Source: a virus
Strand: one strand, 5' to 3'
Virus record (IMG/VR): IMGVR_UViG_3300037502_001046
Span: 1-30,076 of that record
Length of the DNA stretch: 30,076 nt
Under the pieces are notes generated by a model that ran no database searches, was not told the DNA's origin, and saw only the letters and a program-made list of their open reading frames with translations. The translations under genes and the position numbers were made by a program. The first letter of the stretch is position 1. Every line of letters starts with the position of its first letter. This document shows positions 18,730 to 30,076 of the stretch, in pieces.

Positions 18730-19887
18730 ATGAAAATAGAAAAAGAAATTAAAACCGAAGAAAAACAACAAGTAAAAATATTCTCATTTACGGAGGCATA
18801 CCAACCTCCCGTATATAATTTTGTTAAAAAAGGTGATGTGCATTATCTTTCATTCGGGCAAGATAATTTATATCCATACTACTTGTTAGATGTTTATAAC
18901 AATAGGGGTTCATCTTTACACCGAGCAATTATCAACAAGAAGTCCCGTTTGACTACAGGATTTGGTATTAAACCTATTATTGACCCCAATTTATTAAAAT
19001 GGGCTGATGATAATAATTTAGAACAATTGTATAAGTATATTGGAAAAGATTTTGAGATATACAACGGGTTCTGTATTGAAGTTATTTGGTCTAACGATGG
19101 TTCTACTTGTAAATTGAAATATCTTCCATTACACGCAATTAGAATCGGTTTGAAAAAAGAAGAAAAAGAAGCTGATTATTATTGGTATTCGAGTGATTGG
19201 GCACATTTCAAAAAAGACGAACACAAACCAGAGTATATCAAAAAGTATGACCCAAGTGATAGAACAGGTCGTCAATTACTTTATTACGCTGAACCGAACC
19301 CTTCTTATTCACATTTATACCCAATTCCAAATTATTCAACGGCTATGAATTGGGTTGAATTAGATTATGAAATAAGTGTATTTCATTTAAATCAAATCAA
19401 ACAATCATATACCCCTTCTATGTTAATCAATTTTTCAACAGGTATTCCAACACCTGATGAGATGAATACGACTTGGAGAGAGTTTGAAAGAAACTTTAAG
19501 GGAACATCTAATTCAGGTAAGGTTATTTTAACTTATAGTGATGGGAAAGAACAAGCACCCGAAATACTACCAATCAATTTGAACGATAGTGATGAAAGGT
19601 TTATTATGTTGGCCGATCAGGTTAGAGACCAAATTACTCAAGCCCACGAAATGCCACAACAATTAGTTTCATTTGTTCCTGGTAAATTGGGTGGAACTGA
19701 CGAAAGAAAAGAATTAAGTGCCGAGTTTCAAGTGTTTTATACGACAACTCGACAAGAACAATTAGAATATGTAATCAATAGTATCGCTTATGATTTAGGA
19801 TTTAGAGAAGAAATCAAATTGAGACAATATAGCGACGCTGATGAAACAGGACTTTTAACCGAGAATAAACAAATAAATACAATATAA
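18730..19887 (+). CDS. Portal protein
   Basis: The protein has 385 residues. Features of the phage portal family are visible: a clip/wing start (FSFGQ-like LSFGQDNLYPYYLLDVYN), RAIINKKSRLTTGFG, LEQLYKYIGKDFEIYNGFCIEVIW, then LKYLPLHAIRIGL and a C-terminal helical part (FIMLADQVRDQITQAHEMP, TDERKELSAEFQVFY, QEQLEYVINSI). The portal forms the dodecameric DNA gate at one vertex and docks with the terminase and head-tail adaptor. The next gene begins 1 base after its stop and is an adaptor candidate. The gene lies far from the terminase, which is atypical. Confidence 0.88.
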   Translation: MKIEKEIKTEEKQQVKIFSFTEAYQPPVYNFVKKGDVHYLSFGQDNLYPYYLLDVYNNRGSSLHRAIINKKSRLTTGFGIKPIIDPNLLKWADDNNLEQLYKYIGKDFEIYNGFCIEVIWSNDGSTCKLKYLPLHAIRIGLKKEEKEADYYWYSSDWAHFKKDEHKPEYIKKYDPSDRTGRQLLYYAEPNPSYSHLYPIPNYSTAMNWVELDYEISVFHLNQIKQSYTPSMLINFSTGIPTPDEMNTTWREFERNFKGTSNSGKVILTYSDGKEQAPEILPINLNDSDERFIMLADQVRDQITQAHEMPQQLVSFVPGKLGGTDERKELSAEFQVFYTTTRQEQLEYVINSIAYDLGFREEIKLRQYSDADETGLLTENKQINTI

Positions 19888-19888
19888 G

Positions 19889-20497
19889 ATGTCTTACACC
19901 CCAATAGTTCAATTTATATCAACAGAATATTTAAGACAATCAGTTCCAATCGAACAGAATGTGGATGATGATAAATTGATTCCATTTATTATTCAGGCAC
20001 AAGATACATACCTTCAACAATCAATCGGGGAAACAGGGTATAATGCTCTTAAAAATGGTATTACAAATAATACCCTAACTAATGATGAAACGAGTTTGAT
20101 GAGAAATTACATTCAACCATTAGTGGCTCAATATACATTCTACTTGTCTTTACCATTTATTGCGTTCAAGGCAACCAATAAATCAATTTCAAAAGAATCA
20201 AGTGAATATTCAACACCAGTTGATTTGGAGGAATTGAAGTATTTAAGAAATAATGTGAAGGATGTGGCCGAGTTTTACCAAAGAAGATTAGTTCAATACT
20301 TATTGGATTACCCTTCTATGTTTAGTTGGTATGCTAATCCAAACTCAAAAGACAATTTATACAAAACCACACAGGCTTATTTTAACGGAGTTTATACACC
20401 TTATCCATCTACTAACTTGGGTTATAGAGTTTGGAGTGAGCCATACGGACTACAAGACCCGTGTTCTGGTTGTGGAGGATGGACGAGAGGATATTAA
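19889..20497 (+). CDS. Head-tail adaptor, DUF6712-like
   Basis: The protein has 202 residues and is mostly helical. The start FISTEYLRQSVPIEQNVDDDKLIPFIIQAQDTYLQQSIGETGYNAL resembles the connector (gp6/gp15-like) and DUF6712 families that bind the portal. A long central helix pair and a Cys-containing end (DPCSGCGGWTRGY) follow. Gene order portal, adaptor, minor head protein supports the role. The DUF number is from memory of the pattern, not a search. Confidence 0.65.
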   Translation: MSYTPIVQFISTEYLRQSVPIEQNVDDDKLIPFIIQAQDTYLQQSIGETGYNALKNGITNNTLTNDETSLMRNYIQPLVAQYTFYLSLPFIAFKATNKSISKESSEYSTPVDLEELKYLRNNVKDVAEFYQRRLVQYLLDYPSMFSWYANPNSKDNLYKTTQAYFNGVYTPYPSTNLGYRVWSEPYGLQDPCSGCGGWTRGY

Positions 20498-21203: not shown

Positions 21204-21674
21204 TCATTTATAAATACTTGATAAATCAATTTTTTTGACTTTGAAGTATTTTTTTATTTCTGTTTCATTTCTTGGAATCAAATAACCTCTGGTGTTTGAT
21301 CCGTCGTCCCCACTTTGATAAGTTGTTAAAAAGGTATATTCTTCAATTAAATCTTTTAGGTCATCAGTTTTGATATACCAAATCTCTTTTAAATTGTGAA
21401 AATAATTTATCCACCAGTCAGCCTCTGTCGTTGAAATACCTGATGGTCTGTTTTTATATTCATACTCGACAAAAATGTTTCCACTATCTTTATCTGGTCT
21501 AACATAGAAATCAGTTTTAACCTCAAAAGACCTGATTATAGCATCCTTTTTAAGTAATAAGTCATATTTACCATCATCTCTTTTTTCAAGTCGTGTATAA
21601 CCTTCTTTTTCATATAGAAGTGATATTTTAATTTCAGTCTCATTTCCCTTTTTTAAATCTCCCCAAAAACTCAT
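21204..21674 (-). CDS. PD-(D/E)XK family nuclease
   Basis: The protein has 156 residues. Core residues fit the PD-(D/E)XK fold: Glu14 in GNETEIKISLLY, Asp38 in GKYDLLL, and Glu51-x-Lys53 in SFEVKTDF. A strand-helix (FVEYEYKNRPSGISTTEADWWINYF) with conserved Trp follows, as in Holliday-junction-resolvase-like and phage DNA-processing nucleases. Its ATG overlaps the stop of the sigma-like gene by 4 bases, so the two are coupled. Possible jobs are resolution of replication or recombination intermediates before packaging, or attack on host DNA. Its partner in the operon suggests early expression. Confidence 0.7.
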   Translation of the reverse strand: MSFWGDLKKGNETEIKISLLYEKEGYTRLEKRDDGKYDLLLKKDAIIRSFEVKTDFYVRPDKDSGNIFVEYEYKNRPSGISTTEADWWINYFHNLKEIWYIKTDDLKDLIEEYTFLTTYQSGDDGSNTRGYLIPRNETEIKKYFKVKKIDLSSIYK

Positions 21675-22324
21675 AACTTTATTATTTCGTAATTTTTATA
21701 TTTTGTTTTACCCAATTTAAAACCTAAAAGTATTTTGTCTTTCGACATACCTGTTTTTCTTGTTAATTCATTTTGAGATTTAATACCAATTGTATTTCCG
21801 TTCTCATATATTAATAAATACTTGTAATTTGGGAAAAGTCTAAATTTTATTTTACTTTTTAGATTTGTGTGAATTGCATATATTCTTCTTTCATCTAAAT
21901 TTAATTCATTTCCTATATCTTGAAGTTCATATCCTTTGAATGTTAAATCTATAAGTGTTCTTTCTTCATAACTAAATTTGTTTGATTTAAGAAGGTTTTG
22001 AAGTTCATTATATCTTATCTCCTTATCCATATCATTTTCTATCGTAGGATAGGATAAAATCATAGTCTCGTTGAAGTCTGGTTTATAATCTACCAAGTTC
22101 TTTTTGGTATAAAGTCTATAATGAATGAGGTTTTTGATACTTATAAAAATATAATTTTTATTTTTTTCAATTTCAGTAGATAATACACCTTCTTCTTCTT
22201 TTTGAAATAATTTAATAATTATATCTTGGATCAAATCCTGTTTGTCCTCAACCCTCATTTTATACTTGTTGAAGTATTGATTAAAGAGGGAATTGATATA
22301 CTTGTATAGTTCGGTGTAATTCAT
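21671..22324 (-). CDS. Sigma-70-like RNA polymerase sigma factor with an extra C-terminal domain
   Basis: The protein has 217 residues. Residues 8-76 resemble sigma region 2 (DKQDLIQDIIIKLFQ and YIFISIKNLIHYRLYTKKN). Residues 104-163 resemble region 4 (FSYEERTLIDLTFKGYELQDIGNELNLDERRIYAIHTNLKSKI), with a helix-turn-helix. The remaining 50 residues (ENGNTIGIKSQNELTRKTGMSKDKILLGF) look like a small NUMOD-type helix-turn-helix found in homing enzymes. It may direct host RNA polymerase to phage promoters. It overlaps the neighbouring genes by 4 bases on both sides. Strong divergence from ordinary sigma factors leaves room for a non-sigma DNA-binding role. Confidence 0.65.
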   Translation of the reverse strand: MNYTELYKYINSLFNQYFNKYKMRVEDKQDLIQDIIIKLFQKEEEGVLSTEIEKNKNYIFISIKNLIHYRLYTKKNLVDYKPDFNETMILSYPTIENDMDKEIRYNELQNLLKSNKFSYEERTLIDLTFKGYELQDIGNELNLDERRIYAIHTNLKSKIKFRLFPNYKYLLIYENGNTIGIKSQNELTRKTGMSKDKILLGFKLGKTKYKNYEIIKL

Positions 22325-22806
22325 TTGTAATCTTCAACATTCAAACCAAGTTTAATTAAATCTTCAATATCTTTTTCACTACTTAAATCAATACCTAATG
22401 ATTTCATATAATTATCATAAGCAGCATTTGCATTTAATTTTTCTTTTAATTTTTCTTTTACTTTTATTTTTTCTTTTACTTTTACTTTTAATGGTTCTTC
22501 ACAGGTTTCGTTTAGGTTTTCATTAGGTTTTTCTTGGGTTTCTGTTAGGTTATTTACAGGTTTCTTTGGACGACCACCTTTTTTACCATTTTCAACAGAA
22601 GAATCATATTTCTTTTGGACTTCGTCAATTTGATTTTTAATTAGTTTCCAAATACTAATCAAATAACCTTTTGATAAAATAGGGTCTTCAAAGTATAATG
22701 CATAATTTATGATGGATTCATACATAACACATCTATCTTCAAAATCTAAATCTTTGATACTATCATCAAATTTTTTTAAAAAAATAAAACCAGTTCTTTC
22801 TTTCAT
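22321..22806 (-). CDS. DUF6291-like phage protein, possible replication factor
   Basis: The protein has 161 residues. The N-terminal 70 residues (FIFLKKFDDSIKDLDFEDRC, YESIINYALYFEDPIL, IWKLIKNQIDEV) match the pattern of the DUF6291 family, found at the start of replication loci of Bacteroidota phages. A KKGGRPKK AT-hook-like motif follows at about 75-82. Then comes a Lys/Val/Glu repeat (KVKVKEKIKVKEKLKEKL) and a short C-terminal helix (DIEDLIKLGLNVEDYK). By analogy it may be an origin-binding or helicase-loading protein, but this is inference. It is the first gene after the structured leader and promoter at 22819-22946. Confidence 0.6.
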   Translation of the reverse strand: MKERTGFIFLKKFDDSIKDLDFEDRCVMYESIINYALYFEDPILSKGYLISIWKLIKNQIDEVQKKYDSSVENGKKGGRPKKPVNNLTETQEKPNENLNETCEEPLKVKVKEKIKVKEKLKEKLNANAAYDNYMKSLGIDLSSEKDIEDLIKLGLNVEDYK

Positions 22807-22818
22807 AATTTCTTAAAT

Positions 22819-22912
22819 TAAAAAACCCCCGTTAAAAGTAGGGGCTCTCAAATCCTAACATTCAACGAGGGTATTGTTTATATTAAATATCTTTCGGTTG
22901 AGAGCCGTATTA
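22819..22912 (-). ncRNA. Structured leader RNA / attenuator before the DUF6291-sigma-nuclease operon
   Basis: Read on the minus strand, the promoter at 22946-22916 is followed by GGCTCTCAA (22906-22898), which pairs with TTGAGAGCC (22851-22843) to enclose a 46-base loop. A terminator (CCCC 22844-22841, loop, GGGGG 22830-22826, six T) ends 13 bases before the gene ATG. CCCTCGTT in the loop (22871-22864) can pair over 8 bp (one G-U) with AACGGGGG (22833-22826), which would dissolve the terminator or make a pseudoknot. The stem also shares two bases with the terminator arm. A nine-codon ORF (22861-22832) overlaps both. It could be a regulatory leader or an independent small RNA of about 90 bases. 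Confidence 0.6.
22832..22861 (-). CDS. Candidate leader peptide (9 residues)
   Basis: ATG 22861 to TAA 22832 would encode MLGFESPYF. It starts 2 bases after the anti-terminator strand and stops inside the terminator loop, so a translating ribosome would cover the CCCC arm. There is no run of a single regulatory amino acid. Support is positional only. Confidence 0.3.
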   Translation of the reverse strand: MLGFESPYF

Positions 22913-22915
22913 TCA

Positions 22916-22946
22916 TAAATATACCATACTTTTTAAAAAGTTTCAA
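22916..22946 (-). promoter_or_regulatory. Promoter of the minus-strand operon
   Basis: On the minus strand, TTG (22946-22944), a 20-base spacer and TATATTTA (22923-22916) fit the Bacteroidota promoter with one change in the last base. Initiation near 22910 would place the structured leader at the very 5' end of the transcript. Confidence 0.65.
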
Positions 22947-23231: not shown

Positions 23232-23754
23232 TAATATATTAAAAGAGATTACTTCACGGGGGACTATCTACGATGAAATAATAAATAACATAATCCAACC
23301 TAACTTCCACTTAAAACCAGAACTGATCAGCGAAATAGCATTATCATTTTTGGAAAATAGAGAAAAGATTGAAGGTGTAATAGAACAGGGATACTTTGTA
23401 TATTATTTTATTAGAACCGTAAAGAATCAAATACATTCCAAAACAAGTGGTTTTTATAAGAATACACGAATTAAAGACAACATTTCCATAGACAACATCT
23501 ACTCCATAGATGAAAGTGATTTAGAACAAAAAAAACAATTAGAAGAATTATACCAGTTGATAGACAAATCATATACCAAAATCCCCAAAACATATTTCCA
23601 AGAATACTTATGGCATGAGTATTTCACCTTAAATAAAACCCATAGACAGATTGGGTTGGAAAATGATATAAGCCATTGTCTATCATTCCACGAGATTAAA
23701 AAAATTAAAGAAAAATTGATAGAACAAATTAAAAAACAAATTGATTCTTTTTAA
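23224..23754 (+). CDS. Second sigma-like protein
   Basis: The protein has 176 residues. Residues 30-85 (PELISEIALSFLEN, GYFVYYFIRTVKNQIHSKTSGFYKNTR) resemble sigma region 2 of small phage sigma-like proteins. Residues 125-172 (EYLWHEYFTLNKTHRQIGLE, LSFHEIKKIKEKL) resemble a region 4 helix-turn-helix. The 8-base overlap with the preceding small gene is in a different frame. It is quite unlike the sigma-like protein at 21671-22324. It may redirect RNA polymerase to late promoters; a plain DNA-binding regulator is the alternative. Confidence 0.55.
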   Translation: MLDNILKEITSRGTIYDEIINNIIQPNFHLKPELISEIALSFLENREKIEGVIEQGYFVYYFIRTVKNQIHSKTSGFYKNTRIKDNISIDNIYSIDESDLEQKKQLEELYQLIDKSYTKIPKTYFQEYLWHEYFTLNKTHRQIGLENDISHCLSFHEIKKIKEKLIEQIKKQIDSF

Positions 23755-23771
23755 AAAAAGTCGTATATTTA
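23741..23771 (+). promoter_or_regulatory. Promoter ahead of the 61-residue gene
   Basis: TTG (23741-23743), 20 bases, then TATATTTA (23764-23771). It overlaps the end of the sigma-like gene. Initiation near 23778 gives a leader of about 12 bases before ATG 23790. Confidence 0.55.
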
Positions 23772-23789
23772 TTAAACAAACGACACATT

Positions 23790-23975
23790 ATGACAAAGGA
23801 AGAATTATATGAGGAATTATTGACTGATGAAAACTTTATTAGGTTTTTATACGAACAAAAACAATTAAGGATGAGACTTATGGAAGAAGAATTACAATCA
23901 ACCATTACAGATGGTGAGGTGATTAAAGCCGAACCGGCAATTGAAACAGGATTAGAGGATAGTAATAACAATTAA
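23790..23975 (+). CDS. Small acidic helical protein, unknown
   Basis: The protein has 61 residues, with helical acidic/basic segments (KEELYEELLTDENFIRFLYEQKQLRMRLMEEEL) and a disordered C-terminus ending in SNNN. It has its own promoter. Size, charge and place fit an early phage protein that acts on a host target, but nothing in the sequence shows which. Confidence 0.55.
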   Translation: MTKEELYEELLTDENFIRFLYEQKQLRMRLMEEELQSTITDGEVIKAEPAIETGLEDSNNN

Positions 23976-24202: not shown

Positions 24203-24220
24203 TAATGGTTAGGTTTTTTT
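24191..24220 (+). terminator. Palindrome plus T run over the stop of the 70-residue gene
   Basis: CCATTAT (24194-24200) and ATAATGG (24202-24208) form a near-loopless palindrome around one base. They are followed by AGG and eight T. It is weaker than the hairpin 30 bases later because the loop must open some pairs. Confidence 0.4.
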
Positions 24221-24237
24221 TAGTTTCCATATGAATT

Positions 24238-24263
24238 AGGGGGTTCTCATACCCCCTTTTTTT
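24238..24263 (+). terminator. Strong intrinsic terminator
   Basis: AGGGGGT (24238-24244), loop TCTCAT, ACCCCCT (24251-24257), then six T up to 24263. It ends the small-gene unit 22998-24202 before the methyltransferase promoter. Confidence 0.9.
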
Positions 24264-24272
24264 ATTGTATAA

Positions 24273-24301
24273 TTGATTTTTTTTAATCAACGATATATTT
24301 A
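24273..24301 (+). promoter_or_regulatory. Promoter of the zinc protein-methyltransferase unit
   Basis: TTG (24273-24275), 18 bases including a T8 run, then TATATTTA (24294-24301). The spacing is slightly short. It follows a strong terminator, so a new start is needed here. ATG 24323 is 21 bases downstream. Confidence 0.55.
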
Positions 24302-24322
24302 TTTAATAAACACATATAACAT

Positions 24323-29742: not shown

Positions 29743-30076
29743 TTTAACAACTTTTTTCTCATCGTTAGGAATAACAGGAGGGAACACACAAGCCACAAAC
29801 TTCTATGAGTTTTGGAAGGGTATTATTATGAATGGTGATACACAAATAAATAACATTACAGAGTTTATGACTTATTTGGGGACAAATCGTTATGAGTTCT
29901 TCAAGTCATTAAATAGTGATTACCCCGAAGTAATTGATGAAACAAGTTTTTACTCCAATATAGATGACCCAAGAATATATGATTATTATACCTTCTATAC
30001 TTACGCAGCAGAATATTTTGCAACAACCCCAAGTTCTTTTGCGTTTAATTATGCTGAATGGGCTATACCAGATTGC
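29732..30076 (+). CDS. Modular structural protein, N-terminal part (continues at position 2)
   Basis: It starts at ATG 29732 with 115 codons to the window end. The N-terminus is helical (LTTFFSSLGITGG, NFYEFWKGIIM, NITEFMTYLGTNRYEFFKSL) and Tyr/Phe rich, without a signal peptide. The frame is the same as that of the gene entering at position 2, so it is the same protein, of about 436 residues in total. The last 160 bases carry the variant copy with Trp in place of Phe (NYAEW versus NYAEF). Confidence 0.8.
   Translation, partial: MKIDLTTFFSSLGITGGNTQATNFYEFWKGIIMNGDTQINNITEFMTYLGTNRYEFFKSLNSDYPEVIDETSFYSNIDDPRIYDYYTFYTYAAEYFATTPSSFAFNYAEWAIPDC
29917..30076. repeat. Terminal direct repeat, right copy (circular overlap)
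   Basis: This is the partner of 1-160. The mismatches fall at 30043, 30058, 30060 and 30061, all in the final 34 bases. The first 126 bases are identical. Confidence 0.85.

Follow-up and report, generated by a model that had tools for sequence, protein, structure and literature searches.

The window analyzed here, by which we mean the whole 30,076-base stretch of a virus record, contains on its minus strand a promoter followed by a leader that can pair with itself in several ways and that ends in an intrinsic terminator just ahead of an operon. What would an RNA of this kind do at the entrance to phage genes, and does it switch between rival structures, as a preliminary description of the sequence proposed, or adopt a single one? 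The promoter, the GGCTCTCAA/TTGAGAGCC and CCCTCGTT/AACGGGGG complementarities and the U-run that had been read from the minus strand are all present, and the sequence supports a structured leader that has a promoter to itself and ends in an intrinsic terminator before the operon begins. The parts are listed in Table 1, where P1 is a small 5′ hairpin, P2 and P3 are the outer and inner helices of the terminator hairpin, and S1 is the crossing helix between the two hairpin loops. GGCTCTCAA and TTGAGAGCC lie 46 nt apart, and P1 and S1 have GG in common. The terminator core is formed by CCCTCGTT (22871–22864) and its complement AACGGGGG (22833–22826), followed by T6 (22825–22820) and by the ATG at 22806. 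An intrinsic terminator is therefore found in the sequence between promoter and first gene; a simple terminator scan with loops limited to 3–8 does not list it.

Table 1 Features of the leader RNA and of the genes behind it in the window.
Feature	Position	Strand	Basis or remark
Bacteroidota-type promoter	22916–22946	−	TTG 22946–22944 and TATATTTA 22923–22916
Whole leader RNA, ~91 nt	22820–22910	−	5′ end deduced from promoter, 3′ end from U-run
P1, small 5′ hairpin CGG[CTCTCAA]CCG	22895–22907	−	Predicted fold; loop presents S1 5′ strand
S1 5′ strand GGCTCTCAA, kissing/pseudoknot helix	22898–22906	−	
P2 5′ strand ACCCTCGTTGAA, terminator stem	22861–22872	−	
P3, TAGG 22857–22854 / CCTA 22842–22839, inner helix of terminator hairpin around S1 3′ strand	22839–22857	−	
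S1 3′ strand TTGAGAGCC, within terminator-hairpin loop	22843–22851	−	
P2 3′ strand TTTAACGGGGGT, terminator stem	22825–22836	−	
U-run TTTTTT, intrinsic terminator	22820–22825	−	
Nine-codon ORF, MLGFESPYF	22832–22861	−	Judged not functional: not conserved
First gene, DUF6291 protein, 161 aa, replication type	22321–22806	−	Pfam DUF6291, E = 2.4e-12
Second gene, sigma-factor-like, 217 aa, weak	21671–22324	−	PHROG RNA polymerase sigma factor, E = 0.0014
Third gene, 156 aa, weak PD-(D/E)XK nuclease match	21204–21674	−	Pfam, E = 0.017

Taken singly, the window sequence has a folding energy only a little out of the ordinary (z −1.5 to −2.1), and for this reason the case was built on comparison. Sequence search alone (nhmmer) gave homologous leaders in three loci (L015, L010 and L012), and the leader and its flanks, searched as DNA against phage records, gave no match. 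The window TerL used as bait returned many related contigs, and searches of viral contigs with the DUF6291 protein and the sigma-like protein returned one and two loci, respectively. A pseudoknot descriptor specifying stem 1, stem 2, their crossing and then a T-run produced 16 matches in the real loci versus 1 in shuffled ones, and it scored the window RNA at 58, whereas the best of 117 matches in 1.2 Mb of dinucleotide-shuffled sequence reached 49. Moreover, a covariance model (R1) built from a clade other than the window's, with the crossing helix omitted, recovered the window RNA with filters off (26.3 bits, E = 0.0021 in 36 kb) and yielded further copies beyond the descriptor and sequence matches, of which L108 and L144 also possess S1, judged by eye in L108. 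Most copies, including those of clade A1 (the L069 clade), were chosen by the descriptor, which demands both S1 and P2, so that finding these two helices 100% paired is in part built into the selection. This bias does not touch P1 and P3 in A1, which its selection did not require, nor S1 in the three loci recovered by sequence search (L015, L010 and L012) and in the two recovered with the covariance model (L108 and L144). The U-run is also present in these five homologues, which were found without demanding it.

Homologous leaders with compensatory changes, which the preliminary description had suggested as a check, were found: 35 copies were tabulated, and in the best clade, A1, two-sided changes occur in 21 of 27 pairs. 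The 15 aligned A1 sequences have 99.0% standard pairs, and the changes are distributed over P1 (5 bp, 4 of 5 pairs), S1 (5 of 7), P2 (8 of 11) and P3 (4 of 4). The covariation score of this clade is 0.622, compared with 0.218 for column-shuffled and at most 0.09 for slid alignments. The complementarity of the P1 loop to the terminator loop spans 6–12 bp across copies, and the 35 copies present 28 different S1 5′ strands, each fully paired with its own partner; when strands are swapped between copies, 10% of the combinations share 6 bp. Nearer to the window, L015, L010 and L012 keep both S1 and P2 via compensatory changes. P1 as read from the sequences is shorter in the window clade (CGG/CCG in L015, GGT/ACC in L010 and L155, AAGG/CCTT in L012), and P3 is UAGG/CCUA and touches full-length S1; in the window itself the two abut without a linker, so that P3 may compete with full-length S1. 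The only unpaired parts conserved within clades are the linker AAAGA..TATT, a UGAA/GGAU internal loop and ACA..ATA in the P1 loop. In the L069 clade the conserved linker after P1 reads AAAGAAGUUAUU, and the internal loop lies between P2 and P3, where it could form tandem G-A pairs. We regard it as almost certain from this covariation that a conserved RNA structure exists in flavobacterial phages. Because S1 and P2 are kept simultaneously across the 35 copies, the two pairings are assigned to one predicted fold, a kissing-loop or H-type pseudoknot, in which they are topologically compatible and not rivals.

What does this RNA precede? In the window it heads a divergent unit, and no other promoter is visible for the operon. 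The promoter-like site matches at 10 of 12 positions in a promoter scan, and such sites are no more frequent in the window region than in shuffled sequence. A 46-nt block that includes the promoter is 93% identical in L024, L084 and L085, though the leader behind the block differs, and relatives have TATATTTG at the equivalent position. The operon had been described as a sigma-factor operon, a name that the comparison does not bear out, since its first gene is a DUF6291 gene of replication type, the usual neighbor across loci is a replication-initiation gene, and the sigma assignment is weak (Table 1). Pfam lists DUF6291 as a domain of unknown function. Its homologues in isolated phages are annotated "replication protein", the RNA precedes the DUF6291 gene or its operon there, and DUF6291 appears to represent a family of phage replication initiators resembling helicase loaders. 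Across loci a gene of the replication-initiation type typically stands first or second (DUF6291, a DnaD-like helicase loader, E = 2.4e-30, or a primosomal/O-like protein, E = 1.5e-22; in L012 a winged-helix initiator is the second gene), a helicase or primase-like gene often follows it, and a protein with a DnaA C-terminal domain (DnaA-domain-IV-like) is often encoded upstream of the RNA. The downstream gene families are non-homologous among phages while the RNA is constant. In the L069 clade the upstream genes are co-directional with the RNA. The distance from the U-run to the first start codon is usually 15–27 nt, with exceptions of ~250 nt in L028 and L030, 7–10 nt in one or both of L047 and L155, and, in L128, 37 nt to a short ORF. 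In the sister phages L004 and L024, which lack DUF6291, the kissing-loop RNA is absent and a different leader, RNA B, precedes the sigma gene, in L024 behind the same, retained promoter block; for this reason the RNA and the replication gene seem to travel as a cassette.

Among isolated phages, the RNA is found in Cellulophaga phages phi19:3 and phi13:2, Olleya phage Harreka_1, and Flavobacterium phages elemoA, 11b, tooticki9-1 and hemulen6-1. The last two have two copies each, with different S1 strands and with the second copy ahead of another operon, which in tooticki9-1 begins with a NUMOD4/HNH endonuclease gene followed by an ssDNA-binding-type gene; phi19:3 likewise has a second copy, with a different S1, before a YopX gene. 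Searching 397 Flavobacteriaceae genomes with R1 gave one match, a full member on a small contig (L193) that is perhaps of phage origin, so that as far as searched the RNA is nearly restricted to phages. No such RNA was found at bacterial DUF6291 loci (Mesonia, Carboxylicivirga and Chryseobacterium), where weak R1 matches in two of the three genomes proved on inspection to be ordinary terminators, nor at the DUF6291 loci L007 and L008 and those of Riemerella, gammaproteobacterial and gut phages, and Elizabethkingia phage TCUEAP1 had nothing scoring at least 44. Flavobacterium phage FpV9 (L168, KT876725) has at 19880–19968 a promoter, a small hairpin, an A-rich linker and a similar terminator with no S1 pairing; this element is possibly a reduced relative or a chance resemblance and was left out of the copies. 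The preliminary description had recognized no known class, and in agreement with this a search of Rfam 15 at the gathering score gave no match at the RNA in the window or in L069, L119, L155, L112, L153 and L030; the sub-threshold matches, among them PyrG leader at 23 of 65 bits, appear to be due to chance. No description of the kissing-loop leader RNA or of DUF6291 was found in the open-access literature searched. We therefore propose a previously uncatalogued leader RNA class of flavobacterial phages, with P1, S1, P2 and P3 covarying, a U-run, and a promoter directly upstream, as a candidate for an Rfam entry.

How might such an RNA act? We hypothesize, with about even confidence, that it is a cis-acting leader whose built-in terminator, organized by the kissing loop, sets read-through into phage replication operons, in the window including the sigma-like gene. 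Transcription would start just behind the TAnnTTT(G/A) element, P1 would form at the 5′ end, and an AU-rich linker and then the terminator hairpin, P2 with P3 inside it, would follow. The P1 loop would kiss the terminator loop, such that P1, S1, P2 and P3 make up a compact pseudoknotted fold ending in the U-run, and hairpin and U-run together would terminate transcription. The window operon would then be reached only by read-through, because there is no room for a promoter between the U-run and the ATG and the neighboring gene is divergent. S1 can form once its 3′ strand emerges and before the terminator stem is complete, which would make the kissing loop the natural control element: whether S1 has formed when the polymerase is at the U-run would set the output of the replication operon. 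The terminator hairpin is predicted to be stable without S1 (median −17.1 kcal/mol), so S1 would be thermodynamically dispensable for termination; since the hairpin is strong alone and the S1 duplex fairly strong (−11.7 kcal/mol), S1 may accelerate termination, delay it or lock it. Once released, the 90-mer would persist as a stable by-product or serve as a second product. Because many flavobacterial phages carry this fold in rewritten sequence, the leader is probably a control point common to their replication genes. More tentatively, it may represent a new phage RNA class, a kissing-loop terminator module that phages of Flavobacteriia reuse at the heads of operons for replication and other functions; the loop-loop lock would be the timing device that decides read-through, and a phage or host factor acting on the nascent RNA or the polymerase might tune it.

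The preliminary description had instead proposed a riboswitch or translation-coupled attenuator, in which a terminator and an anti-terminator exclude each other over a leader peptide. In its favor, reading of the sequences reveals a GCCCC/GGGGG alternative, a second terminator that can use the S1 3′ strand, in the window and its closest relatives, and the linker AAAGA..TATT, being fairly well conserved, might serve as a binding site. However, outside the window clade this alternative pairing is not conserved, S1 and P2 can form together, no metabolic gene lies downstream, and the rival-pairings model was rejected as a general mechanism because all helices coexist. A conserved mutually exclusive anti-terminator strand was not found among the copies compared, which leaves a classic two-state attenuator unsupported. 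The nine-codon ORF that had been seen over the switching strands is present in the window, but its start, stop and peptide are not conserved (it is absent as such in L015 and starts with TTG in L155 and L012), and its shape therefore follows from the paired bases; the conserved short ORF that translational coupling would call for is not seen. Such a switch is thus very improbable. The least probable of the readings considered is that the RNA is a replication-origin transcript, a primer or origin activator, and not an element of gene expression; its recurrent position at a replication-initiation gene, often after a DnaA-domain-IV-like gene, is consistent with this role, and the second copies before the NUMOD4/HNH and YopX genes in genomes that also carry a copy at the usual site argue against it.

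The main rival to a cis-acting leader is that the phage makes an independent small RNA of ~90 nt, acting in trans and equipped with a promoter and terminator of its own; its location at replication genes would reflect genome order, those genes being served by longer transcripts or leak-through. The anatomy is complete for such an RNA, from a promoter only a few nt away through a compact fold to a U-run; the conserved fold is single and rigid and not a pair of alternatives, and the co-directional upstream genes of the L069 clade mean that the downstream genes there could be served by longer transcripts. We nevertheless judge this reading less likely, since the short distance from U-run to start codon is kept in most loci across different downstream genes and the window operon has no other visible promoter. 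Moreover, S1 strands differ between copies in one genome and S1 occupies the P1 and P3 loops, so that no common target-pairing sequence is visible. A further possibility, which we consider improbable, is that the fold caps the 5′ UTR, sealing the mRNA end against decay and leaving an AU-rich start region open, with the apparent U-run belonging to the translation start region. The placement of P1 at the extreme 5′ end and the usual end of the fold 15–27 nt before the ATG agree with a cap, as does the absence of Shine-Dalgarno sequences and the preference for unpaired start regions in Flavobacterium translation (PMC6847099). However, a G/C-rich stem with six T, the intrinsic-terminator pattern, is kept in L108, L144, L015 and L010, copies not selected for it, where translation would need merely an unstructured A-rich stretch.

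The cis-acting leader may be compared with several known systems. The AbiF-associated ncRNA of Clostridioides difficile (RCd22) consists of a promoter, a structured ncRNA of ~100 nt and a Rho-independent terminator followed by a gene with no promoter between, and the flavobacterial leader has this same order of promoter, structured RNA, terminator and promoterless gene (PMC12373285). Like the AbiF RNA and the RNAs of type III toxin-antitoxin systems (ToxI), it belongs to a phage-borne or anti-phage setting. ToxI folds as a pseudoknot, as the leader is predicted to do; the leader departs from AbiF RNA and ToxI in that its pseudoknot includes the terminator, that the genes behind it are replication-initiation genes from different families, and that each site has one unit and not the tandem repeats of type III systems. 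Type III toxin-antitoxin and AbiF systems were rejected as identities for this locus, no ToxN, AbiQ, CptN or AbiF toxin being found downstream with Pfam, PHROGs and PADLOC. The put sites of HK022 are structured leader RNAs of two hairpins that directly follow early promoters of the phage, number one or two per genome, and act on the elongating polymerase so that it passes later terminators, with no terminator of their own. The leader resembles them in its place after a promoter, in its number per genome and in its two hairpins, and differs in possessing its own terminator and in sequence and fold. The preQ1-I and SAM-II riboswitches are H-type pseudoknots whose ligand-binding core is conserved and whose linked genes are metabolic; the leader is likewise a small pseudoknot just before a putatively controlled gene, whereas its paired strands are freely rewritten and its genes are those of phage replication. 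In plasmid copy control by ColE1 RNAI/RNAII and R1 CopA/CopT, kissing loops form between two antisense RNAs; the leader also has kissing loops beside replication control, but both loops lie in one RNA. If correct, a terminator loop locked to the 5′ hairpin of its own transcript would be an unusual attenuator design. Little of the repertoire of structured control RNAs in Bacteroidota phages has been charted, and because the leader stands at the entry to DNA-replication genes in phages that grow on laboratory hosts, its function is directly testable. A leader of 100 nt is also long when set against the average of 33 nt in Flavobacterium johnsoniae (PMC6847099).

RNA B is a second, longer conserved leader that lies directly before a sigma-like gene (in L030 an HNH-like gene). 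It occurs on the minus strand at L004:4762–4912, L024:6507–6695, L035:1302–1525, L160:1761–1985 and L017:439–690, and on the plus strand at L028:5200–5440 and L030:480–710, in both of which it stands in tandem after the kissing-loop RNA. Its motifs are AGCCTCAAAAATAG ... GACCTAAAAATAGA, with a hairpin loop carrying two G5–6 runs (GGGGGGTAGGGGGG), and it had no match in Rfam. Elsewhere in the window, a second promoter-like block at 23740–23772 on the plus strand, 82% identical to the leader promoter over 33 nt, precedes a small gene at 23790, and a G/C-rich inverted repeat with a T-run (AGGGGG...CCCCCT) is found at 24203–24322 between two small plus-strand genes. The equivalent gap in L012, L013, L015, L016, L017 and L024 also contains a G/C-rich inverted repeat with a T-run; in some relatives its arms flank a loop of 20–50 nt, and it resembles another conserved element. 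Finally, the ORFs at the two ends of the window (1 to ~240 and 29838–30076) have a protein stretch in common, DYPEVIDETSFYSN..., in copies that differ slightly (AEFAIPDC and AEWAIPDC), and the window is therefore probably a complete genome with a near-perfect terminal repeat.
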